Source of the DNA: Chondrosia reniformis
Lineage: Eukaryota > Porifera > Demospongiae > Chondrillida > Chondrillidae
Reading direction: 5' to 3'
Assembly (NCBI GenBank): GCA_947172415.1
Contig: OX359189.1
Location: 2,502,501-2,566,500 of the forward strand
DNA: 64,000 nt
In this document: in pieces, positions 1 through 22,200 of the stretch
Layout of the letters: every line of letters starts with the position of its first letter
How positions within the stretch are numbered: position 1 is the first letter of the stretch
The notes under the pieces: generated by a model
What the model saw: only the letters and a program-made list of their open reading frames with translations
The model's database searches: none
What the model was told of the DNA's origin: nothing
Position numbers and translations under genes: made by a program

Positions 1-220
1 TGAGATAGCGTGACCTGCCCTCACTTGTGTGATTGATCTTATATTATTTTCATTTCATATGTATTATGAGCACCTTGTGATCAATAGCTGTAAAACTTTC
101 ATAATTGCTACATATGAGCATTGCTAACATGATATAGAAAATTGTTTTGGATGCTTCAACATTTATTTAAGCGATGCCACAAGTTTTTGACTCAAATTAC
201 TAGTTCTTTTATGGTTTCAG

Positions 221-752: not shown

Positions 753-979
753 AAGAGATGTAACCATCTCACTAGTAGCAGAGATGTGACTATCTCAGTA
801 GTAGAACAGTGCTTACTTATAGTACATAAGGTGTAGTGTGTGCATAGCTTTGTACTGAGTAGTGTATTTGATTGCTTTATGATTTCAGCTGAAAAGTGTT
901 AAATGCATGCCTTGGCACTAGTATACGCAAGGTATCAATAATAGGAAAGCGATTGCACAACTGTTTCTGATTTTAAAAA

Positions 980-3900
980 ATGGCTACCGTGGAGGAGTGG
1001 CAGTTGTTTCTTGAACAACTAGCCACGAAAGATTCACGGTTGCAGAGAGCAATAGCCATTATATTTGGTGCATTAGTAGCTGATGCTTCAGGTAAGTACA
1101 TTATATAGGAATAAAGTGCATGGTAACGAACAGTTTAATCATATATACACGTATACAAATATCGTCAAATGATTTATAGAATAATATTCGAAGTACATAT
1201 ATTATACATGTCTTACAACCAAATTATTATCCATACTTCTTCTCTGTGTCTACCTATTTCTATGGCAACGGACCTTTTTTATAATTTTGAAGCTCCGTGG
1301 AATTTGTTTCCATAGGTCAGCCATTGCATTGGATATACAAGATGGATAGACTAAAGGATGTACTGAGGGGAGTTGATAAACCAGAATTTTTTGAACCATC
1401 AGCTAATCCTTTTTATCAGCTTGAAGTGGGAGCACAAAGCCCTTATGGTGATGAGATGATGGTTGTCTTGGAATCACTGGCATCATGTGATGGTAAGCTT
1501 GATGTATCCATGTATGGGTTATTTGTAAGTAGTAGGAGTACAGTTGAGGCTACGTGATGGTAAATGTTAGGGATACAGTTGAGGCTACGTGAGGTGTATT
1601 GCTTGTATTGCTCTTTTGAGGTGAGCTTTACTCCTTGATCAATTAGGTTTTAATCTGGAACACCTGAAAAAGACCTTTCTTGATAGCTATGCGCCCAATA
1701 TTAAGAGTAGTGTTGAGTACAATGTTTCAATGAAACATGACCCTTCAGTGAAGCTGCCTGTAAAGACTCCTTGGGTTAATATTCTTATCAAACACTTTGT
1801 GAAGGTTTCATTGGATCAAGTTGAAGATACAGGTAAGGGAGGGGTGAGGTGATGCAGACATTCTTACTATTCAGTGCAATTAGATTCACTTTTTATTTAA
1901 CAGGAATACTCCAGAGGTAGGTTTTCATGTACATTATGTAGCTATACATTAAAAACAGTTTGCTATGCATTAATTGTATTTGATAGTTAACTATTATAGA
2001 TAATTTTTAATTGCCATTTTCTAATCCTCAAAGTGGTCTTGTAAAACTGCCTTGAATATTGTCCCTTCTTCAGTAATCTTTTCTGCTGATCTATGTACGT
2101 ATGTGCTATATAAGACACACTCGTTATAGAGGACATCTTACACTCAATTGCATATATAATTGCTACAGTACGTATATATATATATATATGTACATAATCA
2201 CTGATGATAATCAAACCACAACTATTTAAGTATATGCTCCTATCTACAGCGGACCCACATAATGATGATCCTGATGCCATTGTGTGTGGTATTCCACTGC
2301 TGGCTCTTTGTGCTGCCCGTGGAGAGACACTGGAGGAGATACTTGTAAAGTTGAACAGTTTCTTTGGTCACTTTCAGAAGCAGAGTGTCATCTTATCCAC
2401 AGATCTCCTTGCTACAAGGTATGCAGGGCTGAAGAGAGGGGGGGGGCAGGGAGGTATTCCCACCTCCCCTAGACATTTGGGAAGTTAATATACAGCTTAA
2501 TATTATATACCATTGCCACCCTAAATTTTGAAACTTTTTATTTTGCTCCCCCCGCTCCCTGGCCCCAAGTTTGTATACACACATATACACATACACATAC
2601 TGTATGTCTTCTCTGATTTACATTCTCACTACAAGGTGAGAGGTGAAAGGTGGGAGGTGAACACCGTTTGTTGTTTGCAAAATCAATATTATCACTCTAT
2701 GATTGTCACAGAATGTTTATTTGTCTTTTTTTATAATAATTTGTTAGTCTGGCAAGCCAGACCTTGCTTTCACTCTTTGTTAAAATGAAGGAAATGTCAT
2801 TGATGTCAATCATTCTTGTACGTAATTATAGTGTAGTACAGGTACATGGGATTTTGGAAGTTTGATGTTATAAGTTGGAAATATATTTGTGGTTGGCTCA
2901 AACAACACAATTGTCTCACACAAAAGTTTTCAACAGCGAATATACATAATTCTAGGTTGACCCAGACCACAAAAATATTTCTACACAAATATTTATTGCC
3001 TGAAATTTCCCCGAATTGGGGTGTGTCCTACTGTAGTAGTTAAATCAATTATTCCATATAAGGAATGGTGCTGTTATATTGGAATTATGGATGCTGTTGT
3101 TATTCCATGAAGGCTTATCTATGAATGCATAACAACAACTAGTGGAATAGAGCTAATTGACTTGTTGAAAAATGTCACTGAAGAATTGAGAAATCCAAAT
3201 CGTCATGTTCCACTCTCTGATGATTTGCAGCTTGCAGATCACATGTCTGATGTACTAAAGGCCGACCAATCGTGGACAGCTCTTCAAGCTAGCCAACACT
3301 TTGGAATGGCATGAGGTACACTTGAAGAAACTTGACACATTATTAAAAAAGGATCAACTTGATGAGAAGAGCTTTTAGAAATTCCCCTTTCTTTGACTAC
3401 ATATGTATGCATGTACACACCGCTAACCGTAGTAAGCATTTGTTACAGCAAATTGAATATTCATGTGCTGGTCTAGCCTTGTGTAGTAGAGGTGTGTAAA
3501 GAGAAGACTCTTGTATCCTCATGCAAAGTTCTCGCCAGGTTTATTTCCATATATATAGACCTTTTACTGTAGAGTAGATGTAATATTTAGTTTTTAAATT
3601 ACTCGTGTGTGCATTTAAAGTTTTTGTCCACACACTGTTCATCCCCAAGTCCACTCTGTATCAATAGTGGTAGTTATAAATTGAGTGTACGTATACATGT
3701 TATACTTTACATATGTAAAACCTTACCAATAGCTGTACATTTTCTGTATAACACTACATATGTATGTAGAATTAAGAGCCTCAGTGTACTTATGTATGTA
3801 GAATTAAGAGCCTCAGTGTACATATGTATGTAGAATTAAGAGCCTCAGTGTACATATGTATGTAGAATTAAGAGCCTCAGTGTACTTATGTATGTAGTTA

Positions 3901-4760
3901 AACCTAATAAGTGATACTTTAGTGCCTGTGGTCGTAGGACAGGTAGTTACTCTGTTTGCTCCGTCTCTACAGGTATGCCTGCCAACTTCAAATCTGCTGT
4001 CTTTCTTCTGCTGAAGGGGATGGCTGGTTATGAAGAGACTGTTCGAATGGGAATAGCATCAGGTACTGATGTTTGTGGTGTGTCATGTATTGTAGCATCA
4101 GGTACTGATGTATAGTATGTGGTGTGTCACGTATTGTAGCATCAGGTAATCTTGTTTATAAACTGTATCATATGTACTGATGTACAGTACGTATGTGGTG
4201 TGTCATGAAAAATCTAATATATTATTTTCCTACATGCTATGCCTATTCTGTAAAAAAGCCTATAGGGGAACTAAACCTGAAGAGAGCTTTGAATGAAGAT
4301 ACAGGGGTCTTTTCTTCCTTCTTTTCCTCTCTTTCATCTTCTTCTCCACATGGTCAGACAGCTGTTTCTGGGAATTCCACCCTTCATCAGTGATCCTGGG
4401 AGTCTTTGTCGTTTTCTTTGTCTTGATCTTCTGTGAATCCTTAGCTCTCTATGCTAAATCTAGAGACCATGTATTGTAGCATCAGGTAATCTTGTACGTA
4501 TATACACTGTATCATATGTACTGATGTTTGTGGTGTGTCATGTATTGTAGCAGGTTTAACTGTTGTACTCACTAGTGCTGTGAAGTTTAGATCAAAAGCT
4601 TTTAATCTCTATAGGAGGCTGTACCTGTAGTCGAGTGATGTTTGTTGGAGCTTGTTTGGGAGGGTATTATGGGTTGAAGGCTATTCCTTACGAGTGGATT
4701 GCTAAAACCAAGAACATTCCAAGAGCTGTGGAACTTGTCCAAAAGCTTTTCCTTAAATAA
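980..4760 (+). CDS. ADP-ribosylglycohydrolase family protein, J1-crystallin type
   Basis: Seven exons fit: 980-1091, 1316-1492, 1647-1832, 2250-2418, 3113-3312, 3973-4062, 4615-4760, giving 359 codons. Family marks are GALVADASGQPLHWIY near the N terminus, NDDPDAIVCGIPLLAL in the middle and SGGCTCSRVMFVGACLGGYYGL-type sequence split over the last junction, which is the pattern of the J1-crystallin branch rather than of canonical ARH1/ARH3. Known members hydrolyse ADP-ribose linkages or serve as lens crystallins in jellyfish; which applies here is not visible. Exon 5 has no GT donor in frame: the frame reaches TGA at 3312-3314, and the phase is only restored by ending at 3312, which gives a GA-AG intron. 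Intron 6 carries tandem copies of the exon-6 donor and a dispersed repeat. The start ATG at 980 opens the frame directly before a normal CAG|GTAAGT donor. Confidence 0.82.
3760..3898 (+). repeat. 32-bp tandem repeat, four copies, in intron 5
   Basis: About four copies of a unit containing TATGTATGTAGAATTAAGAG followed by CCTCAGTGTACA/T. Copies are nearly identical, so the array is young. It lies within intron 5 of the ADP-ribosylglycohydrolase gene. Confidence 0.9.
4045..4170 (+). repeat. Tandem copies of an exon end plus splice donor
   Basis: The exon-6 end AGCATCAG|GTACTGATG is repeated about 40 bp downstream, and again as AGCATCAGGTAATCTTG; another copy sits at about 4475-4500. Each is preceded by TGTGTCAYGTATTGT. 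Several potential donors of similar strength therefore follow each other. Confidence 0.8.
4206..4441 (+). repeat. Dispersed repeat family A, near full length
   Basis: Runs from AAAAATCTAATA through CCTACATGCTATGCCTATTC, a pyrimidine-rich middle and GGGAATTCCACCCTTCATCA to TTCTGTGAATCCTTAG. The same 235-240 bp sequence recurs at 8882, 17162, 23776 and (reversed) 56980. No coding capacity; no clear terminal inverted repeats were seen. Probably a non-autonomous element. Confidence 0.85.
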
Positions 4761-4989
4761 TTTTTGACTTCTTGACAGATGATTTCTTTTGCAGTACTTT
4801 AAGGGTAGTATGATGTTAACAGAGTAAATCATTTTAAAGTGATCTCTGTGAACTGATATATCAAACTCTCAAAGCCTGAAAATATCCCCTGTCAGTAACA
4901 TTAATTATGTTGTATGCATTTGTAGTTGACTTCTTTATTATGATGATCTTACATCTACATGTACATATACGTACGCCTAGTAATATTAT

Positions 4990-5140
4990 TCAGTCACTGA
5001 AGAAGACCCTCAGGGTCGAAACGACTGACCAGAAGATTTACCAAGACAAACTGCGTTTTTAGACGCTCAAGAGTTAAAAGATGTACCATCTTAAAGATAA
5101 GTTTAACGCAGTTAGAAGAAATCCTTATTCATTAGTATTA
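4990..5140 (+). repeat. Dispersed repeat family C with hammerhead-like core
   Basis: Begins CAGTCACTGAAGAAGACCCT, with a GACCC-TCA-GGGTC hairpin followed by GAAAC, then CAAACTGCG, TTTTTAGACGCTC, and ends GTTAGAAGAAATCCTTATT. Related copies are at 7645-7845, 21115-21210, 28140-28215, 30500-30612 and 41262-41345. It lies in the roughly 750-bp gap between the ADP-ribosylglycohydrolase and FN3 genes; the rest of that gap is AT-rich with nothing recognisable. Confidence 0.75.
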
Positions 5141-5511
5141 TTATTGTCAGCTCATTCAGATAAAGTGAATCATCACTGATTATAGTGAATGGTAACTAAT
5201 CACTTCCTTGCAGTTAGTATATGAGGGAAAACACTGTGAGTATTGTCATGGTGATTGAAGCAGTCCTATAGTCTTGATTCCTTCAATTGCTTCTTTTGTA
5301 TTTTTCCTACTAACATGATGATTGAGAATGATTATAATTACTTCATTATCACTTGAATTATTCATGTAAACAATGTACCCACTAACAGAACTTAATACAT
5401 TGACTGAAAAAAAAATGTCCATGCATGTAAGTTTTGAAATGAACTAGGAGTATATAGAGATGATTAAATCATTGAGTCTCTGATTGCATGAAGAGTAGAA
5501 GGATGAACGTA

Positions 5512-8500
5512 TCAAAATGTATGAAAAGAAGTGGAGACAATCGCTGCCAAAGTACCACATAGTAGTGCCAATATAACACTTGGAAATATCCCTGCAAGAG
5601 AGAGGATAGAGAATATTTATCATAAGCATATACTATTTACTATATGTATACATCACATGTACATTAATATGCATGGAAAGAGATGTATATAAAAGTGGAC
5701 ATATGTATGTATGTATGTATATATATATACTAGCTATCACAATAGGTGTTATGTGTTCCCATACCAAAGCCACTGCCTGGACTAGCTAAAGAGAGAAAAG
5801 AAAAGAAATTTACGAGCTTACACAATCTGTAGTAGTTACATTGTTAAATTCCTATTAACTGTCTTAATGAATGTAAATTGGCTAATTACAGTATATAATG
5901 CCTACACCGTAACAACAATTTAGGAATCACGCCACAGATAAATAACTTTTCATATATGCTACTTGATATTTATGAAGACTCATTGGCATTGCTGTACGTT
6001 GTTCAATATGTCAGTATATGGGCAGGTAACAACACAATCTGATACAAACCCTTAAAATCTTTAATAGCAGCTATTCAGAATTTGCAGCTGTTTCTTGTAC
6101 AAGTGTATACAGTTTTATATTGAAAGGGTACAACCTTAACTCTTACTGTAAAGCATATATAAACACTAAATACTGCTCATGCATGGGACCACTTGCTCAA
6201 GAACTTACTAAGATTATAATCATTGCTGAAAGCAGAAGTCTCTCCAGATATACTTGTGATAGTGACAAAGTACCGCAGTCTGTCACCAGACACCGGTTGC
6301 CCATATCGACCCATGATGGCTATCTTATTAATTTCCATCAGATCAAGCTGGTTTGTCTCAATGTCAACCATCTGACCAGTATTTAAGTCTTCAACTTTCA
6401 CCTATATACGTATGAGTTCAAAAACAAGATGCTTGTATATACAGTACACATACGTATAGTATCAAGTTTTTGAGCTTATCAATACTTATAATAATATAGG
6501 TACGTATATCTAACAATATGTACAATAATTGTACTGAGAATAAAGAAATATTATACTCACTGAAATATTGGCAACTTGTGGATCAAGAATATTAGGGAAT
6601 CTATCACCGCTACATGACCATGACAGTATGAGGCTGGTAAGATTTACACCAGGTGTGAACATCAGGTTTCCGCATCCTACGTGGATGCATATACGTATAT
6701 GCCATAAGTTTGCAAAAATACAAATTGTATATGTATACATAATGTGAATAGCTTTTGCATCATTGGTTAGCTGTAAGCTCAAGGATTACTGGAATTCCCA
6801 GAAACAGCTACATATTCTAACCCAGAGAACCTGAAGGTACGTACATATAGAGACTGGAGTGGTTCTGAACGTTCTCTAAATTCTTCAGTTAATTGTTTAT
6901 ATACATTTGTGGTTAGATTTTTTATATATTACATGTACAAAATACTAGTCAATACTGCTAGCTGAAAAGTAAATCTTTGAGAAACAGACACACTACTAGT
7001 GCAACCACAGTGGTATAGCAGTCACAGCCTTATGTACTTCTCACCCAATACATACCATATCATCCACATTACTATGCGGAATGAAAGGAATACGAGGGTA
7101 CATGACATGAGAAAGAAAGAAAGTCTAACTGTATATGCTAAGTCACACGTATATAGGAAATTGTATTTTAGTCTATTTCCGTGGACATGTCAAACATACC
7201 CAGAAAATGGGAATGTAGAATGTTCATTGAATGATTGCAACAAATACAATATAAACAATATTGTCAATTAAGAAATTATACATGAGATACACAGATATAT
7301 AGGTAGGTGGGCAGGTTCATACACATACCTACTGATAGAGTTGTAAAACTACTATTAACCAGTGTACTTGCATCCCCATTAGAAGTCGTTTGGATACTGG
7401 CAGTGTAGTCAGCAGAGAAGCCCAGATACATGAGTGTGAAAGACGTCTTATTTCCCAAGATATTAAATGATCCCTTAGCAGCAGTGGTTGCTGGTCCATC
7501 TAAAGTGATTTTAAACCCAATATCTGAAGCATTTTCATTCTAAAATAGAAAGGAAGTAATTTATCAATTTATATACCAGTTAATATACAAACTGCTGATC
7601 TATACATATACATATACGTATACGTACCTTTAAACTAGATTATTATTTAGAATATTTTTGAAAGGATCCTTTTTTGACTTTTAGAGTGTCTAAAGACGCA
7701 GTTTGTTGTCTCTCTTGATTGTCAGATGTTTCAACTCCAAGGGTCTTCTTTAGTGACTATGTCTGTAGACACTCTAAAAGTTGAAAGATGATCCTTTCAA
7801 AAGATAAGTTCTACACAGTTAGAAGAAATCCTTATTCGGAATATTATCCAAATTCAGCATAATACCTAGTCTCAAACACTAACATATGACTAGGCAGATG
7901 TCTTTAAGTTAAACTGATAACCACAACTTCAGTCAGATCATTATCCATGCATATGCTGTGCTATAGGAAATCAGTGCAATTATTTTTATAATGTAATTCA
8001 TGTTATTCAGAAAATGTCGGAGAAGGAGAAGGTGGAGAGCAGGAAGGTAGGCTGGCGGAGGAAGTAATGACTGGAGAAGGAGTGGGAAGAAGATCTAAGA
8101 TGGTGGTCTATAACTAGACCATCTGAACTTGGTAGATTTACGCATGTGTAGTTTAACGGACGACCCTTGCTACAGGGAATTTTTGCTGATGTCCAATTGA
8201 GTATTGATTGATTGAATTCATATCAGATCAGGGTCACGACTATAATAGTTTATATATGTATATAAACTACACACTAGAACTAAAAATAGGAATATTATAC
8301 ATATAAAATCTGTGGGTAGGAACGAAATTAATAAACAGTGCTATTAATTAGATGCATCATATTCCACATGCATAAAGGGATATATATCATGTCACCTCCG
8401 GTGGTTTCCAGGTCAGTACAGCCCTTTCATGGGTAATATTCTCCACTTGGACCATAGTTGGTGGATCTACGTATATAATATATATGATTAGTATTATTTA

Positions 8501-9764
8501 TTTTAGCCTTACATATATAATTTTTAAAATTAATTAAGTATACAATACTTCACAAGCGTATATGTAAGTAATACCTTATAGGCATGTACTGATGAAAGGT
8601 GAAATCTTTAGATTATGAAAGATTAGTCTTACACAAAACATCTAAATGGATTATTATTTTCAATAGGCTAATTAAGTCTGTTGAATAATTTTCATTCTCA
8701 GAAAAAAAGTTTTCTCCTTTGCGTCCCTTTCAATTAAGATGCCTAGATGGTCACGGCTTACCATAGTATACTGTATACTGATTACACCCTTACAATTATT
8801 TAGATGAATGGATGGATTGTTAGCCTTCCAAAGGAACTAATATTGCGTAGCCCCAAACTGCTATCTACCCTCCATATTTTCAGGAAAATCTAATACACCA
8901 TTTTCCTACATGCTATATGCCTATTCTGTAAAAAAGCCTATAGGGGAAGTAAACCTAAAGAGAGCTTTGGATGAAGATACAGGAGTCTTTTCCTTTCTTT
9001 CATCTTTTTCTCCTCCTTTCATCTTCTTCTCTACTGGGTCAGACAGCCGTTTCTGGGAATTCCACCCTTCATCAGTGATCCTGGGAGTCTTTGTCTTTTT
9101 CTTGATCTTCTGTGAATCCTTGGAATCATGGTGTCTTGGCAAACTATAAGGGGTTATCTTATACCCAGCTAGTCTCACATAGCCAGACCACTACCAAGAC
9201 TCCATATTTATTCAAGAAACTAATACTTGTATCTGGTGGTTTGGGATACACCATCAGGTCTAGGGATATTGAATGTCAATTTACCTGGGGATAGTATTTT
9301 ACAAAATCAAAATGGAATCATAAATTAAACATCCTCCCACATCCTCAAAATTATCATGAAACTAGTGGATCCACTATGAGGATTTAATTATTAAGTTTAT
9401 AACTATTACAATCAAAATGATATACTTCTACTTGAAATCATTATGTTTTCGCAACAATGCATGCAACTGGCACCATAACCCACAAAATACATACTTCCTT
9501 GAAAACATTTCCGAATTGTACGTAGACAAAGACAACATGTGTTTATCTAGTACAAAACTAGGAACCGCCAAAGCTGCAACTTACTAGGCTGTCCGAATAC
9601 AACTTGGAAACTTACAAAAAGTATACAGAAACCTACAGGAAATGAAAGCATATATTGTATCTAGACTAAGTGCGATGGATTAGAATTCGAACACTAACAT
9701 AGAGCAATAAGATTTGGTAGAAGTAACTAGTAAAGAACTTACCGTATCCTACGACACTCGCCAT
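5512..9764 (-). CDS. FN3-domain protein with C-terminal membrane anchor
   Basis: Seven exons join in phase: 9764-9743, 8466-8396, 7539-7329, 6676-6561, 6401-6209, 5785-5765 and 5591-5512, giving 237 residues. The first fibronectin type III unit runs from DPPTMVQVENITHERAVLTW to YTASIQTTSNGD. A second FN3-like unit has LTSLILSWSCSG and ends LRYFVTITSISGETSAFS. A 21-nt microexon encodes SPGSGFG, followed by the hydrophobic IFPSVILALLCGTLAAIV and stop a few residues later, so the tail is almost absent. The inferred N terminus MASVVGYD is not a signal peptide, so either the protein is tail-anchored or a signal-bearing first exon was missed. It resembles the FN3 cell-surface proteins common in sponges; ligand unknown. 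Confidence 0.65.
7645..7845. repeat. Family C foldback composite
   Basis: Contains GAAAGGATCC and GACTTTTAGAGTGTCT on the left, answered on the right by AGACACTCTAAAAGTTGAAA and GATCCTTTC. The hammerhead-like core (reverse strand) lies between the arms. It ends with the family tail AGTTAGAAGAAATCCTTATT. Located in intron 2 of the FN3 gene. Confidence 0.7.
8882..9121 (+). repeat. Dispersed repeat family A, near full length
   Basis: Same order of blocks as the copy at 4206: CCTACATGCTATATGCC, GCCTATAGGGGAAGTAAACC, the pyrimidine-rich middle, GGGAATTCCACCCTTCATCA, TTCTGTGAATCCTTGG. In intron 1 of the FN3 gene, so opposite to the direction of transcription. Confidence 0.85.
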
Positions 9765-10096
9765 GTCTCCCAAGCAGTGCTGTTTAGGTCGAACGATATA
9801 CACTAACTAACATGACCATAAAAGGCACGTGTAGATAGAATGAGCTCATAGCGTCGCCCCTGCTCCGGAAGAGAGCAGACGGACGGAGCGCATGACACAT
9901 TGCTTTGATCAGTTACTTTTTATACAATACATAGAATTCCTCATATGCCAGCACACATTTTCAAAATAATTAGGTATTAGCTGGAATTCCTTCAAACTTC
10001 CCTACAGCCAAGTGCAATCAAGATGTTCACATTGCCTTGGTATATCAAGATAGACCTTATTTCCTGTGCTAACCTCGGCTTCCAGTAAAATCAATA

Positions 10097-10254
10097 ATGT
10101 CGGCAGATTCATCTTCCATCGTGTATGTGCGGAGACCATCTACAGTTACGATCTCACAGCCTATTCATTTCCGGCGAATAGAGCTGCCATTATTAGCTAT
10201 AAGCATAGGCGTTTCTGTTATGTCATGTTTTCTTCGAATTTCGAACGAAACTAG
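10097..10254 (+). CDS. Possible small ORF or orphan first exon
   Basis: ATG at 10097 opens 53 codons (MSADSSSIVYVRRPSTVTIS at the start, LPLLAISIGVSVMSCFL near the end) and then TAG|GTAAAA, which could be a donor or simply read on to TAA. It lies 333 bp from, and divergent to, the FN3 gene start, in CpG-richer DNA than its surroundings. No downstream exon was found before the dioxygenase block. It may be the first exon of a gene lost or interrupted by the duplication. Product unknown. Confidence 0.25.
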
Positions 10255-10510
10255 GTAAAATCGACGCATTCACGATGCTATCTCGACGTTTCGCCCGAAA
10301 AGAGCTTCTAGACTTAAAGATTTTCTACGCAGGAATTGAAACTACACGTGTTTGTGCAACTCATGATCCGCCATTTTTAATGAAATTCCGTATTCCGTAT
10401 TTCATTCCGGTTTCCGCGTTTTACTGCAGGCCCTTTTACGAATAGTCACGGGGAATCACGCATGAACACTTCCGCATTCTGATATTTATATTGGCAATGC
10501 AAATACTATA

Positions 10511-11518
10511 CTAATCTGTGTCTTTCTTGATGAAGGCAGCCACTAACATTCCATAATATGTGGGTGCAAGCCGGCACAGAAGGTGTGAATCATACGTAGC
10601 TCTCCCCTCAACCTCAGCTGACAGTATGCCATGCAGGATGCAAAGCCCATAGATACCACATGAGTATTTTTCCATGTTAGTAGGTTTCTGTAGCCACTGC
10701 TCAGCAACTCTATATGTAGTTTTATCCCACATGGCTGAGCGCTTCTCTGTAGTCTTAGATGGTTGGGTTAAATCACCTAAACCAAGTGGAGTGCATTGTA
10801 CCCAGTGCTCAATACTCAAATCAAAGGTGAGCGCCGTTGCAGATGTGGGGAAAACCCATCTTGGATCTGGGAGGTACAAGGAGAGTTTGCAGTCTGTCTC
10901 ATGGTTATGGGAAAGATCACCAGTGGCAATATAAAGCACACGCTTTTGCAAGCTATTTAGAAATCGTGCAATGGACTTTCCAAATTTGATAAGTTCGGAT
11001 AAAGGCTCTTTGTCTGTCCGCCGTTCAGAGTTACTGAAAATAACTACCTTCAAGCCAGCACTGGTGAGATCCCGAAAGAACCACAGAGGAACGACCTCGC
11101 TCCATCGAAGCGGTGCTTCGTATTCAGTATGAAACGCCGTGATTCCATTAGCCGGGATGTTGTCTCTCTGCAAATGTTCAATAAATGCTCTCGCCAGATC
11201 CGAGTCCAAAGTAACATTGACATCGTACTCCTTCCACTGCCCCATCCATTCCGCGTTTCCTTTAGCTCTGGAATTTAAGTAAATGGCAAAACTGTTCCTT
11301 AAGTACATTCCGTGCGGCGTGTTGAGGAAGATGACCTCTGGTCTCGTTGCTTTGGCCATTTCGGCTGCCTCGCGAAATGCTCTGAATAACGTCCGGCAGT
11401 CCTTCTTTAGCGTATTCGGCAGAGCCTTTATGCGATCGGCTGTTGCTGTTAATTCCTCTCCTCCGTCGAAAACCATGGACCCGTGAGGGAGAGCCAAGCT
11501 ACTGACAATCGGCATCAT
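10511..11518 (-). CDS. LigB-type (class III) extradiol dioxygenase-like protein, copy 1
   Basis: Intronless 335-codon gene. Motifs of the class III extradiol ring-cleavage dioxygenase fold are present: LPHG with His12, LNTPHG with His69, a SEVVPLWFF segment near 141-148 matching the conserved xxVPL strand, and GDLSH with His204; the C terminus has APTYYGMLVAAF. His12 and His69 are the expected iron ligands. Family members open catechol-type rings or form DOPA-derived pigments; the substrate here is unknown. The second start, at 11515, matches the only start available in copy 2 and is probably the real one. A TATA-like GTATATAGG lies about 50 bp upstream and CCAAT about 30 bp upstream. Lack of introns among intron-rich neighbours suggests horizontal transfer or retroposition. 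Confidence 0.85.
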   Translation of the reverse strand: MMPIVSSLALPHGSMVFDGGEELTATADRIKALPNTLKKDCRTLFRAFREAAEMAKATRPEVIFLNTPHGMYLRNSFAIYLNSRAKGNAEWMGQWKEYDVNVTLDSDLARAFIEHLQRDNIPANGITAFHTEYEAPLRWSEVVPLWFFRDLTSAGLKVVIFSNSERRTDKEPLSELIKFGKSIARFLNSLQKRVLYIATGDLSHNHETDCKLSLYLPDPRWVFPTSATALTFDLSIEHWVQCTPLGLGDLTQPSKTTEKRSAMWDKTTYRVAEQWLQKPTNMEKYSCGIYGLCILHGILSAEVEGRATYDSHLLCRLAPTYYGMLVAAFIKKDTD

Positions 11519-11540
11519 GAGGGTCGGATCTAGGATTTTT

Positions 11541-11575
11541 CCAATTGGGATTCACTCGCGATCGCCTATATACTC
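11541..11575 (-). promoter_or_regulatory. TATA and CCAAT motifs of dioxygenase copy 1
   Basis: On the minus strand GAGTATATAGG is followed by a CCAATTGG palindrome, 25-60 bp before the start codon. Both are kept in copy 2 (14799-14836), though nearby bases differ, which suggests that they matter. Confidence 0.5.
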
Positions 11576-12171
11576 GCCATTAAATTTGATTTTTATACCG
11601 TAAAGCTACAATTGTACGCGCGCAGAAATTTATGCAATTTTGGAAAATTTGCATGGCCTCTAACAAATTTATGTGCTTTTTATTTATGCATGTTTTTTGT
11701 CTATCAAGATTAAGCAACATATTTTATTAATGCGCGCCATAAACAGATCAAGAGAGAGTGGGTTGTTCATATCTCAATATTGAGTATGTGGCTCAGGGTA
11801 GCAGTCTATCACCTGTATCCTGGCTGTGGATGTCCCAGATTATGTAATTACTGACAACAAATCAATACACATGCAATGCTTTAAGAGAAACCTTACAATG
11901 GGTGTTTCCACTTTGGTGACTTCCACATAAGGTTCTTTATTTCTTATATATATATTATAGGTTTCTGTAAGAATTCACAGACACGGAAATGAGTCTTATT
12001 TATTATAGTTCACCTGCTACAACTATGTTCTCATGTTCTGTGTGGGTCAATTGCCATTAAGCAATAGGACAAGTGCTTTGTGAGGTAGGAACAAGCTATT
12101 GGCAGCTGCTAGGGAGATTATGTCATGGTAGCTGTATATACTATGCATGTAGAAAAAATGGTGTATAATTG

Positions 12172-12172
<1 letters not shown>

Positions 12173-12207
<35 letters not shown>
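12173..12207. repeat. (TTA)n microsatellite
   Basis: About ten TTA units directly at the end of duplicated block 1; an (ATA)n run follows at 12299-12313, just before the foldback element. Confidence 0.9.
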
Positions 12208-12313
12208 GAGTACAATAAATTAGTAAAACGGGGAAATATACTAACACCAGAAATTAAAATACAACCTTAACGTAAAATTTAAATTTTACAATGGATAAAT
12301 AATAATAATAATA

Positions 12314-12563
12314 ACTAGAAATATTAAAAATTTTCTACAAAAATAGTGAAGATGTAGGGATGGCATAAAAAGTAGAGAAACAAGAAAGGGATGTTACACA
12401 GTGAAGCATTAGCTGTGCATGAATCATACAACACCCTTGCTTGTAGGATTCATGTATAGCTAATGCTTCACTGTGTGACATCCCTTTCTTGTTTCTCCAC
12501 TTTTTATGCCATCCCTACATCTTCACTATTTTTGTAGAAAATTTTTAATATTTCTAGTTTCTG
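12314..12563. mobile_element. Near-perfect foldback element (snapback MITE)
   Basis: Arms of about 105-110 bp start AACTAGAAATATTAAAAATT and end AATTTTTAATATTTCTAGTT. They enclose a short loop around CATACAACACCCTTGC. Inner arm sequences CACAGTGAAGCATTAGCT and AGCTAATGCTTCACTGTG also pair. Arm identity is very high, so the insertion is young or maintained. No coding capacity. It would form a long hairpin when transcribed. Confidence 0.9.
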
Positions 12564-12638
12564 TATTTTTTATGGAGCATGGGCTAGGAATTAGATTCAT
12601 ATAATTAAAATCATTTTGGTTTCGCAATCTTCGACTGA

Positions 12639-12864
12639 TTATGACGTCATTAAAATGGCGACTTTATTGAGGCCTTGACTCTAGGGTCATGAAAACCGTC
12701 ATGCTCAATAATAGCGTTATCGCTCTCGCTTCTACAAAAGAATACAGCTCGGAAAATTTGCAGTAGTTTCGTGTAACAATTAGTCCAAAAGCTTATATAG
12801 TTTTTTAGTTATGGCTGACGAAGAAGAAGAAGAATATGAAGAAGACGAAAATGGGAATTTTTAA
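12639..12864 (+). other. CRE-like promoter and 17-codon acidic micro-ORF
   Basis: ATGACGTCAT (full CRE palindrome) at about 12639, a TATATAG motif at 12794-12800, and ATG at 12811 followed by MADEEEEEYEEDENGNF and stop at 12862-12864. It looks like a promoter plus the start of a gene, but nothing downstream continues it. It may be the 5' end of an element or of a lost gene. Confidence 0.25.
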
Positions 12865-13038
12865 GGTTTATTATTTCGCCAGCGGGACATATTCGCTTGC
12901 TTTTAAGGTCTATTTAGAGTATGTATATTGTATATTTAGCCATACATAGCCTTGTTTTGTCGATTTTCGGCCTATTTCGGGATTTCGCTCCTATACCAAT
13001 GTATGGGGAAAACGAAAAAAACCGTGTCATCCCTACAT

Positions 13039-13060
13039 AGGGAGTACTACCGTACTCCCT
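13039..13060. repeat. Short perfect hairpin
   Basis: AGGGAGTAC and GTACTCCCT flank TACC. It lies between the micro-ORF region and the LINE remnant and could mark an element end. Confidence 0.5.
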
Positions 13061-13079
13061 GATAATAACAATAATCACA

Positions 13080-13712
13080 CTAAACCATAAACTCAATGTT
13101 GACTGCTGCACTGTTAGGGAGGGATGCAATTACCAATGTAGCATTCCCAACCTGGATGGCAACGGAAATCCTCTGCATTAGGAAGGCATGTGACTTTGGT
13201 TCTCCAGTCACCATCCTGAGACGCTTGCTAAGCTCCCTCAGAAAAGCCCTGGCCTTGGGACCTATAGAGCCACATGTCTCCATAGCTACTGGCTGGAATC
13301 GATAGATGCTGTCGAGGTGAGCATACTTCTTGGCCTTTTCCTCTTCAGCATGAGAGGCAGCCCCTCCTGGCTCTATGGCAGCTCTCCGGGAGTGTGATTG
13401 ACAAAAAGTGTCAATACATGTGGCATCCCATACTAAGTACTTTCCCTGTTCCCAGGGGACCATGGTCATTCCATCAGGGCGATTCCCGTCTGACCGGTGA
13501 AGCCCAGAAGGTTCCAGCCACGACGGGATTTTCGCAGCTGTGAGAGCATGTTGGATGATGTTGTTCACTGCGTTATGGCGCGGAAATCTTCCTTGGCTGA
13601 ACCTACAACTTAGACCATGCCTGGCAAATTTATCTGGGGGGATAGAATTTACTGTGACACCGGTTCCGCGTTTTAGAGAGAGCCCTGGTTGCCATACTTT
13701 ACGAATAGTCAC
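13080..13712 (-). mobile_element. LINE ORF2 C-terminal remnant
   Basis: An open frame of 210 codons contains ARHGLSCRFSQGR, RPDGMTMVPWEQGKYLVWD, GPKARAFLRELSKRL and HAFLMQRISVAIQ. I recognise these as the conserved domain that follows reverse transcriptase in a group of invertebrate non-LTR retrotransposons. The reverse transcriptase itself is missing. The first 15-20 codons of the frame run into duplicated block 2, so the retroelement part ends near 13660. It is a 5'-truncated fossil wedged against the duplication boundary. Confidence 0.65.
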
Positions 13713-15440
13713 AACGAATCACGCATGAACACTTTCACATTCTGATATAATATTGGCATGTAAATACTAATTTGTGTCTTTCTTGATGAAGGCAGCCACT
13801 AACATTCCAAAATATGTAGGTGCAAGCCGGCACAGAAGGTGTGAATCATACGTAGCTCTCCCCTCAACCTCAGCTGACAGTATGCCATGCAGGATACAAA
13901 GCCCATAGATACCACATGAGTATTTTTCCATGTTAGTAGGTTTCTGTAGCCACTGCTCAGCAACTCTATATGTAGTTTTATCCCACATGGCTGAGCGCTT
14001 CTCTGTAGTCTTAGATGGTTGGGCCAAATCACCTAAATCAAGTGGAGTACATTGCACCCAGTGCTCAATATTCAAATCAAAGGTGAGCGCCGTTGCAGAT
14101 GGGGGGAGAGCCCATCTTGGATCTGGGAGGTACAAGGAGAGGTTGCAGTCTGTCTCGTGGTTATGGGAAAGGTCACCACTGGCAATATACAGCACACGTT
14201 TTTGTAAGCTATTGAGAAATCGTGCAATGGACTTTCCAAATTTGATAAGTTCGGATAAAGGCTCTTGGTCTCTCGGCCGTTCAGAGATTGAGTTACTGAA
14301 AATAACTACCCTCAAGCCAGCACTCGTGAGATCCCGAAAGAACCACAGAGGAACGACCTCGCCCCATCGAAGCGGTGCTTCGCATTTAGTACCAAACGCC
14401 GTGATTCCATTAGCAGGGATGTTGTCTCTCTGCAAATGTTCAATAAATGCTTTCGCCAGATCTGAGTCCAAAGTAACATTGACATCGTACTCCTTCCACT
14501 GCCCCATCCATTCCGCGTTTCCTTTAGCTCTGGAATTTAAGTAAATGGCAAAACTGTTCCTAAAGGACATTCCGTGCGGCGTGTTGAGGAAGATGACCTC
14601 TGGTCTCGTTGCTTTGGCCATTTCGGCTGCCTCGCGAAATGCTCTGAACACGGCCCGAAAGTCCTTCTTTAGCGTATTCGGCAGTGCCTGTATGCGATCG
14701 GCTGTTGCTGTTAATTCCTCTCCTCCGTCGAAAACCATGGGCCCATGAGGGAGAGCCAAGCTACTGACAATCGGCATTATGAAGGTCGGATCAAAGATTT
14801 TTCCAATTGGGATTCACTCGGGATCACCTATATACTCACCATTGATTTATATACCGTAGAGCTACAATTGTACGCGCGCAGAAATTTTTTGGAAAATTTG
14901 CATGGCCTCTAACAAATTTATGTGCTTTTTATTTATGCATGTTTTTTGTCTATCAAGATTAAGCAACATATTTTATTAATGCGCGCCATAAACAGATCAA
15001 GAGAGAGTGGGTTGTTCATATCTCAATATTGAGTATGTGGCTCAGGGTAGCAGTCTATCACCTGTATACCGGCTGTGGATGTCCCAGATTATGTAATTAC
15101 TGACAACAAATCAATACACATGCAATGCTTTAAGAGAAACCTTACAATGGGTGTTTCCACTTTAGTGACTTCCACATAAGGTTCTTTATTTCTTATATAT
15201 ATATTATAGGTTTCTATAAGAATTCACAGACACGGAAATGAGTCTTATTTATTATAGTTCACCTGCTACAACTATGTTCTCTTGTTCTGTGTGGGTCAAT
15301 TGCCATTAAGTAAAAGGACAAGTGCTTTGTGAGGTAGGAACAAGCTATTGGCAGCTGCTAGGGAGATTATGTCATGGTTACACACCTAGCTGTATATACT
15401 ATGCATGTAGAAAATATGGTGTATATTATTTTTATTATTA
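13663..15440. repeat. Duplicated block, copy 2
   Basis: Direct repeat of 10409-12185. A small insertion (TTACACACC) near 15376 and loss of a short stretch near 14888 are visible differences. The unit length is almost unchanged. Confidence 0.85.
13767..14777 (-). CDS. LigB-type (class III) extradiol dioxygenase-like protein, copy 2
   Basis: Intronless, 336 codons, differing from copy 1 at about 26 positions by hand alignment, including a two-residue insertion (SNSISERPRD against SNSERRTDK). All the presumed metal and active-site motifs (LPHG, NTPHG, EVVPLWFF, GDLSH) are unchanged. Most changes fall in loops, and the frame is fully open, so both copies are probably functional. The start at 14777 corresponds to Met2 of copy 1. 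TATA and CCAAT motifs are kept upstream. Expression divergence between the copies is possible but cannot be seen. Confidence 0.85.
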   Translation of the reverse strand: MPIVSSLALPHGPMVFDGGEELTATADRIQALPNTLKKDFRAVFRAFREAAEMAKATRPEVIFLNTPHGMSFRNSFAIYLNSRAKGNAEWMGQWKEYDVNVTLDSDLAKAFIEHLQRDNIPANGITAFGTKCEAPLRWGEVVPLWFFRDLTSAGLRVVIFSNSISERPRDQEPLSELIKFGKSIARFLNSLQKRVLYIASGDLSHNHETDCNLSLYLPDPRWALPPSATALTFDLNIEHWVQCTPLDLGDLAQPSKTTEKRSAMWDKTTYRVAEQWLQKPTNMEKYSCGIYGLCILHGILSAEVEGRATYDSHLLCRLAPTYFGMLVAAFIKKDTN

Positions 15441-16204
15441 CTAATTTTCCACATGCTCACCAGCACTATAGGGCCAAACTGCCCTATGAGGCACAAAACA
15501 ACACAATAACAAACATGTCCTAGTGATACAATAATACATAACCATATACTTAACTCAATAGTCATGCAGTTCAGCAACAACAAAAAAGGAGGCAATTGCT
15601 TCATTTATAAGGTAAGGTAAGAGAGGCTGGCATTCGGTGCACCACGCATTACACTCAAACAACCAATTGGTAACATGCTCCACCTTCCCTGCCTGACACT
15701 CCCAACATGTCCTCTCCTCTCCCTGAAGCCCCCGCCCACCGTCCACTCTCAATCATGAGGGGGGCTGTCCCACCTCTCAACAACATCATCACTCATGACT
15801 CTTGCTGGCCACATCCAAGCACTGTGATTTATCACCATTCTCCTTAAGTAGCCACAAAATAACCAACTTCGGTTTGGTGTGCTAAGCTCACATGACCATT
15901 CCTCTTCACTCATCCTCCTCGCACAATATATTATAGCTACTCACCACACAAAGTATAGCCACAAGGGGGGCCAACTCATACATGTACAGAAGATCTATAT
16001 ATCAGATGTCAATGGTGCCATCAAGACACAACTAGTATACCCTTACATTCTTATTGCTTTAGAAGTGTATATTGTCGTGATCAGTGACAATAGACAATCT
16101 GGCATTTATATACACTTTTGCCGAGTATTTTGTGCCATGACCCAGTATTATAGATATTCAAAAAACCACAGTTGTGGTCGGCTTCCTGTTTGATCTGGTT
16201 CAAG
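15441..16204 (-). mobile_element. Possible LINE 3' remnant and otherwise empty gap
   Basis: Minus-strand translation near 15700-15600 gives RTCWECQAGKVEHVTNWLFE with further cysteines, like the C-terminal CxxC...H...C zinc-binding segment of LINE ORF2. A second open piece lies at 15900-15770 in another frame. Both are short and decayed. The rest of the gap to the CBS gene shows nothing recognisable. Confidence 0.4.
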
Positions 16205-19200
16205 ATGGCGGACACAACTAACAACGGTAACCCAACTGGTATGCCAGAAGGCTACATCCCTCCTGATGTTGCTCCGAAATGTACCTGGAGTCTCGGGAAA
16301 AGGCCAAGTGACTCAGTTCATCACCACGAAGATCCAAGGTAATATTGATGGGCATCAATACCCACAAAATGTTTAGACATTAATATTGTTTCTTTGTTTC
16401 TTTAAATTTGAAAGGCATACATACTATGGCAATGTCTTGCTATCCATTTGCGTACTGTATTATTGGTATTTTTCTATAACCTATAATGATTACGTAAATC
16501 CAATAACTATAAATGACGATTCTTCCGTACTTGATAGCGAGAAGCTGCCCCGAACTGAGATTCTTCCAAACGCTTTGCATTGCATTGGTCAGACGCCCAT
16601 GGTGAGATTAGATAAGATCGCAAAGAAGGAAGGCTTAAAGTGTGAACTGTGTAAGTTGTAAAACACATTGTCAGTTGAACATTCTTGTACATTTACCACT
16701 GCACATAGGCCCACCATGGTATATATTATACGTACATTATTGTTGTAACGATGTGGGGTGTGTGGTGTGGGTGTGTGATGGGTTCATAATAAGCATTGTG
16801 GTTCTAGTGAGCCTTGGCATTCTGATAAAGGCCAAAGGTGGAATGTGGCAGAGGGTCAATAAAGCAAGGATACTTGGATGTACACATAATTGGGCATGAC
16901 AGTAGGTATGGTAGCTGATTATGATAAACCCTACATTTAGTTTATGAGGTTCAGATTTTGTAATGTGTCACTTCTCTGGGAATTCACACTAAAAGGAAGT
17001 TAAGCGAGTTACATAGTTTATTGAGAATGATGTTGTCATATCTCCATCTATCTGGTCACAGCAGTTCTGCACTCCATTACAAGGCACACAAAGGAAGTGC
17101 GAAATGTTCTATAGTCTAGTCACTTATTTACATCTACAACAAATTGTTAAAAAACATAACTGATGAAAAATCTAATACCTACATGCTATGCCTACTCTTT
17201 AGAGAAGCCTACTCTTTAGAGAAGCCTACTCTTTAGAGAGGCCTACTCTTTAGAGAAGCCTACTCTTTAGAGAAGCCTACTCTTTAGAGAAGCCTACTCT
17301 TTAGAGAAGCCTACTCTTTAGAGAAGCCTACTCTTTAGAGAAGCCTATAGGGAACTAAGCCTGGAAAGAGCTTTGGATGAAGATACAGGTCCTGGAGATT
17401 TTTCTTTTCTTTCTTCTTCTTCTCCACTGGGCCATGCATGATGCATTATATATATGCATTGCAAGTTAATATACCTATATGCTTTAGTTTAATTGTAAGC
17501 TTTCAATAGATATTTTTCCAGATATTTGTAAAGTAAACAATTTTCAGTAATGGAGTCATGTAATAGCTAGGAAAATAAAACACAAAATGAGGACCACAAG
17601 TAAATAGTGCGGATACTCTTATAGTCATCCTCAGTGTGTGTCTCTGTGCAACTAGCTAGTTATGGCCACATACGTAGCTGGAATTATTGATAAAATTTAA
17701 AGGTCTAATAATTATAGGTACGTTTGGATGGAAGTAGGTACTATGTAAGTACTAAATGATTATATTTTTCTCTCATGTTTCCTATGCAATGAGGGAGTAA
17801 AGCAGATATACATTATGACTATGTGTTGCTTGCATGGAGTTCCTCTTCATTCATATATTTTTACACTCAGTGGCCAAGTGTGAATTCTTCAACGCTGGAG
17901 GATCTGTGAAGGATCGCATCGGACTGAGAATGGTAGAGGAAGCTGAGAGATCTGGCCAATTGAAGGATGGTGATACTATCATAGAACCAACGTCAGGAAA
18001 CACAGGTCAGTCTCTTGCTACACAAGACCACCTTCCATCACATTAGTGATACAAGATCTCACTGATAAACAGATAATTAATTAGTTTGTTTTTCAATTGA
18101 TTTTTAAGATGGAGGCATAAATGGTACATTGTTGTGACAATTGTAGTCCAGTAACAGAGCCCTTTTGTGGTCAGAGTATCACTAATATCCTGTATGTATG
18201 CATTGTACCAATCCAGCCACCAATATTGGATCAATTTAGCACCTGGTACCATGTAAGTATGTACTTATCACTTGTGGTGATTCTATTTAACTGTACCACT
18301 AGGTATTGGACTGGCCCTGGCTGCTGCTGTGAAGGGATACAAGTGTGTAATTGTAATGCCAGAGAAGATGAGTGGAGAGAAGGTAGCTGTTCTGAGGGCT
18401 CTTGGGGCAGAGATAAGGAGAACACCCACCTCAGCTTCCTTCAATTCACCAGGTAAGTACCCACCTCTCCGCTTCCTAATCGCTTCCTAATCACTTCCTA
18501 ATCGCTTCCTCTCCGCTTCCTCTCCAGATTGTAATCCATTTATTAGCAGGAGTGTTACTATTGTTTTCACATGTATTTTAGAGTCCCACATTGGGTTGTC
18601 ATGGAGACTGAAGAATATGATCCCAAACTCGCATATCCTGGACCAATATCGCAATGCTGGTAACCCTCTGGCACACTATGATACCACGGCCGAGGAGATC
18701 ATACAGCAGTGTGGAGGTGAGGGATCAGATACGAACAGTACCTGTCTGACTAAAATTGAATTGTGTGGTCCACCTGAGCTGTGTGTGGTCAACCTGAGCT
18801 GTGTGTGGTCAACCTGAGCTGTGTGTGGTCAACCTGAGCTGTGTGTGGTCAACCTGAGTTGTCTGTGGTCAACCTGAGTTGTGTGTGGTCAACCTGAGTT
18901 GTGTGTGGTCAACCTGCATGAGCTGTGTGTGGTCAACCTGAGTTGTGTGTGGTCAACCTGAGCTGTGTGTGGTCAACCTGAGCTGTGTGTGGTCAACCTG
19001 CATGAGTTGTGTGTGGTCGACCTGAGCTGTGTGTGGTCAACCTGAGTTGTGTGTGGTCAACCTGAGTTGTGTGTGGTCGACCTGAGTTGTGTGTGGTCAA
19101 CCTGCATGAGTTGTGTGTGGTCGACCTGAGCTGTGTGTGGTCAACCTGAGCTGTGTGTGGTCAACCTGAGCTGTGTGTGGTCAACCTGAGCTGTGTGTGG

Positions 19201-22200
19201 TCAACCTGAGCTGTGTGTGGTCAACCTGAGCTGTGTGTGGTCAACCTGAGCTGTGTGTGGTCAACCTGCATGAGTTGTGTGTGGTCGACCTGAGCTGTGT
19301 GTGGTCAACCTGAGTTGTGTGTGGTCAACCTGCATGAGTTGTGTGTGGTCAACCTGAGCTGTGTGTGGTCAACCTGAGTTGTGTGTGGTCGACCTGAGCT
19401 GTGTGTGGTCGACCTGAGCTGTGTGTGGTCGACCTGAGCTGTGTGTGGTCAACCTGAGTTGTGTGTGGTCAACCTGAGCTGTGTGTGGTCAACCTGAGTT
19501 GTGTGTGGTCAACCTGCATGAGTTGTGTGTGGTCAACCTGAGCTGTGTGTGGTCAACCTGAGTTGTGTGTGGTCGACCTGAGCTGTGTGTGGTCGACCTG
19601 AGCTGTGTGTGGTCGACCTGAGTTGTGTGTGGTCAACCTGCATGAGTTGTGTGTGGTCAACCTGAGCTGTGTGTGGTCAACCTGAGCTGTGTGTGGTCAA
19701 CCTGAGCTGTGTGTGGTCGACCTGAGCTGTGTGTGGTCAACCTGCATGAGTTGTGTGTGGTCAACCTGAGCTGTGTGTGGTCAACCTGAGCTGTGTGTGG
19801 TCAACCTGAGCTGTGTGTGGTCAACCTGCATGAGTTGTGTGTGGTCGACCTGAGCTGTGTGTGGTCGACCTGAGTTGTGTGTGGTCGACCTGAGCTGTGT
19901 GTGGTCGACCTGAGCTGTGTGTGGTCAACCTGAGTTGTGTGTGGTCAACCTGAGTTGTGTGTGGTCAACCTGAGTTGTGTGTGGTCAACCTGAGTTGTGT
20001 GTGGTCAACCTGAGTTGTGTGTGGTCAACCTGAGCTGTGTGTGGTCAACCTGAGTTGTGTGTGGTCAACCTGCATGAGTTGTGTGTGGTCAACCTGAGCT
20101 GTGTGTGGTCAACCTGAGCTGTGTGTGGTCAACCTGAGCTGTGTGTGGTCAACCTGAGCTGTGTGTGGTCAACCTGAGCTGTGTGTGGTCAACCTGAGCT
20201 GTGTGTGGTCAACCTGCATGAGTTGTGTGTGGTCGACCTGAGCTGTGTGTGGTCGACCTGAGCTGTGTGTGGTCGACCTGAGCTGTGTGTGGTCAACCTG
20301 AGCTGTGTGTGGTCAACCTGAGCTGTGTGTGGTCAACCTGAGCTGTGTGTGGTCAACCTGAGCTGTGTGTGGTCAACCTGAGCTGTGTGTGGTCAACCTG
20401 CATGAGTTGTGTGTGGTCAACCTGAGCTGTGTGTGGTCAACCTGAGTTGTGTGTGGTCGACCTGAGCTGTGTGTGGTCAACCTGAGCTGTGTGTGGTCAA
20501 CCTGAGCTGTGTGTGGTCAACCTGCATGAGCTGTGTGTGGTCAACCTGAGTTGTGTGTGGTCAACCTGAGCTGTGTGTGGTCAACCTGAGCTGTGTGTGG
20601 TCAACCTGAGTTATAAATTTTTAGTACATTAACTTTTATAAGAAAATTTAGTTATACTTGCATAAATAAATTTGCTTCAATTAACTCTTTGATATTTATA
20701 TTCATGCTTCACTGTACTAACCTCTTTAATTAGGAAAAGTTGATATGGTAATTTGTGGAACTGGTACTGGAGGCACAGCAGCCGGTGTTGGTAGAAAAAT
20801 GAAGGAAAAGATTCCGGATTGTCAGGTCTGCTATGCCATCACATGTACATATGTACAAAACATGCATATAACAATTATCTTTTCTTTTCTAATAAGGTTG
20901 TAGGAGTGGATCCCAAAGGATCCATTCTAGCTCTTCCTACAGAAGTCAACGAGACTGATGTCACATCCTATCATGTGAGAGTCATGTGATTTCCTGAAAA
21001 TTACAAAATGTTGCCTTTCAAGTTTTCATCCTTACACAATAGCAAGCTATACATAGTTAACTGCATACATATATATATCATCATGTTTTAGCCAGCATAC
21101 AGCATAAATTAGATGATAAGGATTTCTTCTAACCAAACTTATCTTCAATCACTGAAAAAGCCCCCCTGGGTAAAAACATCCGAATCCTAAAGTGTAAACT
21201 GCAGTGACTCAGGGGGGTGGATAGCCAAACTTGGTCCTATTAGAGAGCTGGCTGCATTATAGAAAACCTTATGTACAGTCCATTATACAATTTCTGCTTT
21301 AAGATCCATCTTCAATCACTGAAGATGGTGGTCACATCCATAATTCTGATGTGATCACTTACACAATTTTACTGTATAGAGGACATTTATCCTACCAATT
21401 AAGTGTAATAAGTCATATGTTGCTATATGTGCATACCCACCTACGTAGGTGGAAGGGACGGGATATGATTTCATTCCAACAGTCTTTGATCGCTCTGTGA
21501 TTGACAAGTGGTACAAGTCAGATGATGACGAGTCATTCCATTATGCACGAATGCTAATTAAGGAGGAAGGATTGCTTTGTGGTCAGTTAGAGCATTTAGA
21601 ATATAAGAATATATAAACAGACAAAATCACTGTTCATCACATAAGTGTGGGGCTTGCTCAGGATTGCCCCATTAAACAGTAGGACAACTCCTTCTCTGAA
21701 CAGTAGAAATGAAGTTTTGTCTTTTTGAAGTTATGATCAGTTGTAGTGTTCCTCATTGTGTTCAAAGGGTCTGTGCCTCTTCTTGTTCTTAATGTTAGGG
21801 GGTAGCAGTGGTTCGGCTGTAGCAGCTGCCATCAAGCTCGCCAAGGACCTGAAACCAGGACAGAAATGTGTTGTTGTACTACCAGATTCCATCAGAAACT
21901 ACTTGTAAGTCAAATATGTGTATGTTGTTTAATATAGTTGTGGAGTTTATCGGATTAAGCAACCTCAATTAATTTTTTATTCTGATGGTTATACATAAAG
22001 AAATGGTTTCTAATATATCAGAAATTTATGCAAAGCTTCATAGAGGGGAAGTAGGGGATTCCCCTCTCCTAGACAGACTGTCTTCTCTCCTGGTATGAGT
22101 ATATGGACTTAGGGTAACCCCCTAAAAATTATTACATCTAGATCAGTGATGCAGTAAATCAACTATCATCATAGCCTTGCACAGGCTGCTTAGTGCAATT

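Follow-up and report, generated by a model that had tools for sequence, protein, structure and literature searches.

Two neighbouring genes without introns in the sponge Chondrosia reniformis raise the question of what a LigB-superfamily protein does in an animal, and from where the animal lineage obtained it. The genes lie in a stretch of 64,000 nucleotides (nt) of the assembly GCA_947172415.1 (contig OX359189.1, positions 2,502,501 to 2,566,500 of the forward strand); this whole stretch is called the window below, and coordinates are counted from its first letter. In the initial annotation the pair was taken for class III extradiol dioxygenases, possibly acquired from a bacterium. Our analysis favors another answer. 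With a probability of about 0.6, the pair encodes a metal-binding protein with a two-His-one-Cys site that belongs to an archaeal branch related to TK2203 (PDB 5hee; presumably a 'putative extradiol dioxygenase' of Thermococcus kodakarensis), has a MEMO-like or other non-extradiol role, came from the archaeal side and was recently duplicated in tandem. The genes and the predicted site are as follows.

10511–11518, minus strand: copy A, a LigB-superfamily gene without introns, 335 amino acids (open reading frame (ORF), PF02900, alignment).
13767–14777, minus strand: copy B, a LigB-superfamily gene without introns, 336 amino acids, with the predicted ligands H11, H68 and C288 (ORF, PF02900).
Within 13767–14777, minus strand: surroundings of the site in copy B, W138, D202 and H205 (alignments, model).

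Both ORFs were complete and ran without an intron from the first strand of the LigB domain to the C-terminal motif APTY[FY]GMLVAAF, which is common to the window pair and its Asgard relatives. Copy A starts with MMPIV, and its second Met is at 11515. The PF02900 (LigB) model, with a gathering cut-off of 26.3 bits, was passed by copy A (E-value of 2.4e-13, 50.3 bits) as well as by copy B (E-value of 8.7e-16, 58.2 bits). Thus, the absence of introns and the membership in the LigB superfamily were confirmed, and the pair is a variant within this known superfamily. None of the NCBIfam models was passed, the best score being 29.9 bits against the 286 bits of the 3-carboxyethylcatechol 2,3-dioxygenase model, and the AmmeMemoSam_B model gave 15.6 bits with a cut-off of 26.

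The prokaryotic relatives found for the pair were archaeal. When 84,980 species genomes were scanned with exact 8-residue patterns and copy B as query, 16 pattern matches were obtained, from which six loci were confirmed, all of them from Asgard archaea (Heimdall-, Loki- and Hodarchaeota) and with 27–30% identity to copy B over at least residues 3–330. The prokaryote-like affinity of the pair was thereby borne out, but the proposed acquisition from a bacterium was not, because the prokaryotic relatives were Asgard archaeal in 6/6 loci. A profile made from the window pair and the six Asgard relatives (profile A1, eight members) matched in 53 of the 227 genomes of the Asgard phylum. No relatives were found on plasmids and phages by tblastn with the window protein, or on plasmids with an Asgard query; in viral contigs, copy B gave no pattern match, and an alignment query gave 29 pattern stretches and no relatives. 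The pair has the features of the Asgard Cys-type and TK2203-like family, namely the full-length profile match and the WGExxP, PTYxGM and Cys-Gly motifs, with WSE in place of WGE in copy A. In eight Asgard Cys-type loci (L001, L005, L010, L013, L015, L016, L017 and L020), a gene which we take to be TldD/PmbA-like from its sequence was located upstream on the same strand; this neighbor is weak evidence, since all eight loci are in one subclade.

The residues of the site were compared in an alignment of 44 rows, consisting of the two window proteins, TK2203 and 41 Asgard proteins (17 of the 59 places matched by A1 were omitted and one short row was dropped). H11 was present in 42/42 rows with a letter at this position, and H68, W138, D202, H205 and H207 were present in 44/44 rows. 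In the column of the third ligand, 34 rows had Cys, namely both copies and 32 of the 40 Asgard rows having a residue there; nine rows had Asp (TK2203 and eight Asgard rows), and one truncated row had a gap. The Cys and Trp states occurred jointly in the 32 Asgard rows and both copies.

Comparison with the class III enzymes gave a mixed picture. The LPHG, NTPHG, VPL and GDLSH motifs pointed out in the initial annotation were all found in the pair, together with the pair of His ligands that follow the first two strands (H11 and H68) and the catalytic His equivalent to His195 of LigB and His179 of MhpB (H205 in 44/44 rows). However, the third ligand, which is Glu (or His in DODA), is predicted to be replaced by Cys288 in both copies, and the other catalytic His (LigB His127, MhpB His115, DODA His119) is replaced by Trp138 in 44/44 rows. 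The statement that the class III motifs are kept therefore holds for the two metal-binding His and His205, but not for the third ligand and one catalytic His; likewise, the metal ligands are partly lost, with the two His retained and the carboxylate gone. As reported in the available text of PMC11926856, LigB His127/His195 and plant DODA His119/His175 are second-sphere, substrate-contacting catalytic residues, and much activity was lost in DODA H119A or H175A.

The assignment of these residues was based on several alignments. Trp138 was aligned with His115 and H205 with His179 of Escherichia coli MhpB. This alignment was out of register at the third ligand; Cys288 was mapped from the MEMO profile and the published correspondence of C244 of MEMO1 to Glu242 of LigB (available text of PMC11081632). 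In the profile-profile alignment with Asgard MEMO, Cys288 was on the MEMO Cys, His11 on the His of PHAGY, and Asp202/His205 on the MEMO Asp/His. For E. coli YgiD, the hhalign scores (E-values of 0.017–0.027) were insufficient for residue mapping.

An AlphaFold2 model generated from A1 had a mean predicted local distance difference test score (pLDDT) of 72 and a predicted template modelling score (pTM) of 0.81. In this model Cys288 is the first residue of helix 288–305, H11 and H68 follow strands 3–9 and 61–66, and D202/H205 follow strand 195–200, a placement which, as modelled, is that expected for the LigB fold. The best Foldseek match was TK2203 (1.1e-16), followed by aminophenol dioxygenases (8.2e-14), DesB, DHPA dioxygenase, DODA and LigB (1.0e-11), and MEMO was lower (3.1e-7).

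Could the pair nevertheless be true class III extradiol dioxygenases, which open catecholic rings from the diet, symbionts or pigments? The fold matches were dominated by ring-cleaving enzymes, PF02900 was passed, and the two His ligands and the His195/His179-type H205 were conserved. Deviant sites also occur in active members, as BvDOD uses three His as ligands (PMC11926856, in the part available), and aminophenol and DHPA enzymes have Tyr in the W138 column in structure-profile alignments, so that a change at this column alone would not exclude activity. But in both copies, as in the 32 Asgard rows, Cys in place of the carboxylate is paired with Trp in place of the catalytic His, and Trp138 and Cys288 together make ordinary extradiol cleavage unlikely. 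Many of the Asgard hosts are considered anaerobic, which also counts against this explanation. For MEMO1, which has His-His-Cys, the available part of PMC11081632 reports that no dioxygenase activity was found when gallate, protocatechuate, L-DOPA and other substrates were tried. Because the predicted metal site has Cys at the position where ring-cutting enzymes typically have an acid, the function of the pair is probably other than ordinary ring cleavage; judged from the sequences, the proteins are probably not classical catechol dioxygenases, and are probably distinct from MEMO. A ring-opening enzyme is thus an unlikely explanation.

To place the pair, a tree of 48 rows was made, including 30 Asgard Cys-type rows, with seven Asgard MEMO rows as the outgroup. 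The window pair, whose stem was long (0.93 changes per column), was grouped with 16 Asgard Cys-type rows (support of 98/88) and was sister to a Heimdall/Hod/Loki clade, not within one of its parts. In approximately unbiased (AU) tests, the grouping of all 30 Asgard Cys-type rows without the pair (p of 0.03) and that of the pair with the Asp-type rows (p of 0.028) were mildly rejected. As the relatives are Asgard archaeal, the gene could also have descended vertically from the archaeal ancestor of eukaryotes. Inheritance of such an ancestral gene, lost by many eukaryotes, can be proposed tentatively: the confirmed relatives in the scan were all from Asgard archaea and the pair was sister to the Heimdall/Hod/Loki clade, but the grouping of the pair with the three Hodarchaeota-side rows alone was weakly rejected (p of 0.0455). 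That the animal lineage acquired the gene horizontally, from an Asgard or another archaeon, before it was duplicated in tandem is possible but doubtful. Such a transfer would be in line with the lack of introns, the placement of the pair among Asgard rows, the GC content of the copies (0.471/0.478, compared with 0.371 for the window, and above that of three of the four ORFs examined alongside) and their CpG observed/expected ratios (0.73/0.69, compared with 0.16–0.53 in all four of these ORFs). In contrast, the long stem and the identity of ∼30% indicate that there was no recent donor, the porin ORF had a similar GC content (0.476), and single-exon genes are also found in animals.

It is scarcely credible that the pair is a diverged eukaryotic MEMO paralogue, although the Cys is in the same register and a group of the pair with the MEMO rows had a p of 0.079 in the AU test. 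The profile of the Cys-type proteins (32 rows) was far closer to that of the TK2203-type proteins (9 rows, E-value of 5.3e-53) than to that of Asgard MEMO (7 rows, E-value of 7.2e-9); these E-values are relative, because each was obtained with a one-profile database. The PF01875 (MEMO) model did not match copy B up to an E-value of 1, and two of the eight A1 members gave sub-cut-off matches (best E-value of 0.026). Moreover, MEMO was found alongside the Cys-type family in four of the six Asgard genomes from the species-genome scan, so that they are two separate families.

Several observations weigh against a two-His-one-Cys protein of archaeal origin. Exact 8-residue patterns may miss diverged bacterial relatives. 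Among solved structures, the best match of profile A1 was TK2203 (E-value of 6.4e-23), followed by ring-cleaving enzymes (best E-value of 1.1e-4) and not by MEMO, and copy B alone gave nothing significant (best E-value of 0.02); by overall fold, too, known dioxygenases outranked MEMO. His68 was one column off the second His ligand of MEMO in the profile alignment, and C288 was in a block of the model with a mean pLDDT of 57. The existence of the Asp-type sister group implies that the third position is not fixed in its chemistry. Finally, the grouping of the pair with the MEMO outgroup was not rejected, and the AU tests were only moderate; as the groups had been named after the tree was seen, the depth at which the pair is placed is not firmly fixed.

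In the favored two-His-one-Cys interpretation, the protein, probably cytosolic, is a LigB-fold member of the Cys-type subfamily that also occurs in Asgard archaea, and it would hold Fe(II) or Cu(I) through H11, H68 and Cys288. Its role would be MEMO-like redox or metal handling, or an undescribed non-extradiol oxidation, instead of catechol cleavage. The animal lineage would have received the gene from archaea, through descent or transfer, before the recent tandem duplication with its promoter region and the purifying selection that followed. For MEMO1, the available text of PMC11081632 gives H49, H81 and C244 as ligands of Fe or Cu and reports that C244S and H49A did not bind iron. In the available part of PMC9477392 it was doubted that MEMO is redox-active and that its copper geometry had been modelled correctly, and the decarboxylase activity proposed for the archaeal MEMO homologue MJ0403 could not be shown, as far as the text of PMC3857490 was available. 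A further-reaching version is that the animal keeps two copies of an Asgard-kin gene as a second His-His-Cys family beside MEMO, possibly as a relic of the archaeal ancestor (or by transfer), with an undescribed metal or redox function; this we regard as rather doubtful.

The pair is a recent tandem duplication that included the promoter region, as had been supposed from the sequence at the outset. The duplicated units and the upstream blocks are as follows.

10435–12185, minus strand: duplicated unit A, comprising 3′ flank, gene and ∼670 nt of 5′ flank (blastn within the window, repeat search).
13698–15443, minus strand: duplicated unit B (blastn within the window, repeat search).
11638–11937, minus strand: upstream block of copy A, with 3/300 differences from 14887–15186.
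14887–15186, minus strand: upstream block of copy B, the partner of 11638–11937.

The two units of ∼1.75 kb were 93.8% identical over 1766 aligned columns. An identical residue was encoded by 308 of the 334 aligned codons, and the single internal length difference between the copies was 6 nt, in frame. The rates of synonymous (dS) and nonsynonymous (dN) substitution were calculated to be 0.089 and 0.036, respectively, giving a dN/dS (omega) of 0.40. The deficit of amino-acid changes was significant (Fisher p of 0.0034, with rounded site counts), demonstrating that both coding sequences have been under purifying selection since the duplication. The upstream blocks differed less (3/300) than the synonymous coding sites (19/226; Fisher p of 2.7e-5), which suggests a conserved promoter or local gene conversion.

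Retroposition of an intron-bearing host gene is quite improbable. It would account for the lack of introns, and a retroelement-like ORF is located beside copy B; however, no poly(A) run was observed after the stop codons, and no parent gene was found within the window. Since ∼670 nt of 5′ flank was duplicated along with the gene, the second copy itself did not arise by retroposition. The ORF in question (13080–13712, minus strand, 210 amino acids), directly downstream of copy B, had no match in Pfam or PDB, and we assume from its sequence that it resembles the C-terminal part of a non-long terminal repeat retroelement polyprotein.

Bacterial or archaeal contamination of the assembly is very improbable. 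The genes are prokaryote-like and intron-free, and no eukaryotic gene could be firmly named to the left of the pair. On the right, however, a cystathionine beta-synthase exon (16527–16649) adjoins the pair, and tyrosine-kinase, eukaryotic porin and MYND ORFs were found farther right, so the right-hand sequence is eukaryotic. In addition, AT-rich DNA containing a foldback of 248 nt lies between the copies, and the closest relative found was only ∼30% identical. In the left flank (1–10410), 10 of the 37 stop-free frames of at least 60 amino acids were scanned and none was over a Pfam cut-off; two left-flank frames had no match among solved structures. The best resemblance in this flank, a sub-cut-off one to PF03747 (ADP-ribosylglycohydrolase, E-value of 0.021), was shown by the frame at 1291–1554 (plus strand), which is perhaps one exon of an ADP-ribosylglycohydrolase gene.

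Other features of the surroundings were also recorded. The foldback between the copies (12313–12559) is an inverted repeat that aligns with its reverse complement over 248 columns at 93.5% identity; it looks like a small mobile element, and no further copy was found within the window. At 19001–20000, the local GC content was 0.54, compared with 0.37 for the window, with strong GC and AT skew. No Rfam family was matched at 9000–17000. A bacterial-type promoter scan gave 26 matches, compared with 18.0 ± 4.8 in shuffles, and is not useful for a eukaryote.

No description of this animal family was found among the literature matches listed, and no literature combining 'extradiol' with 'Asgard' was found. 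In the available main text of a gene-transfer paper on Amphimedon (PMC4784904), the word 'dioxygenase' was absent, and PMC8195603, in the part available, deals with another superfamily. If our interpretation is correct, 'extradiol ring-cleavage dioxygenase' would be the usual but erroneous annotation of this gene, because it has only part of the catalytic set. An animal protein would be linked with a family of Asgard archaea, a connection relevant to the question of which genes eukaryotes retained from archaea. MEMO1, with its unusual two-His-one-Cys site and a biochemical role still under debate, would be joined by a second, separate family having such a site, and comparing the two families could show the purpose of this site.

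Among known systems, TK2203 was the best match both by sequence among solved structures and by fold. It shares the PHG, SPH, WGE..P, SAD..H and PTYFGM motifs and the Trp at the catalytic-His column with the pair, but has Asp where the pair and most Asgard rows have Cys, and groups with the Asp-type proteins. The Asgard Cys-type proteins (L001–L006 and others) are alike over the full length with ∼30% identity and have the same His/His/Cys, Trp, Asp and His; the window proteins differ by extra loops of 13 amino acids at ∼21–33 and of ∼11, 14 and 11 amino acids between 216 and 280, the larger of which had low confidence in the AlphaFold2 model. The MEMO family (PF01875), including MEMO1, may share with the pair a metal site of two His and one Cys; the Cys is in register, and an Asp-His pair lies beside the site. 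Nevertheless, it is separate by profile score, has His (EHSIE) at the Trp138 column, and its second His is one column off. MhpB, LigB, 2-aminophenol 1,6-dioxygenase and DODA have the fold, the His ligands and the second-sphere equivalent of His205 in common with the pair, but their third ligand is Glu (His in DODA) and their Trp138 column contains His or Tyr.

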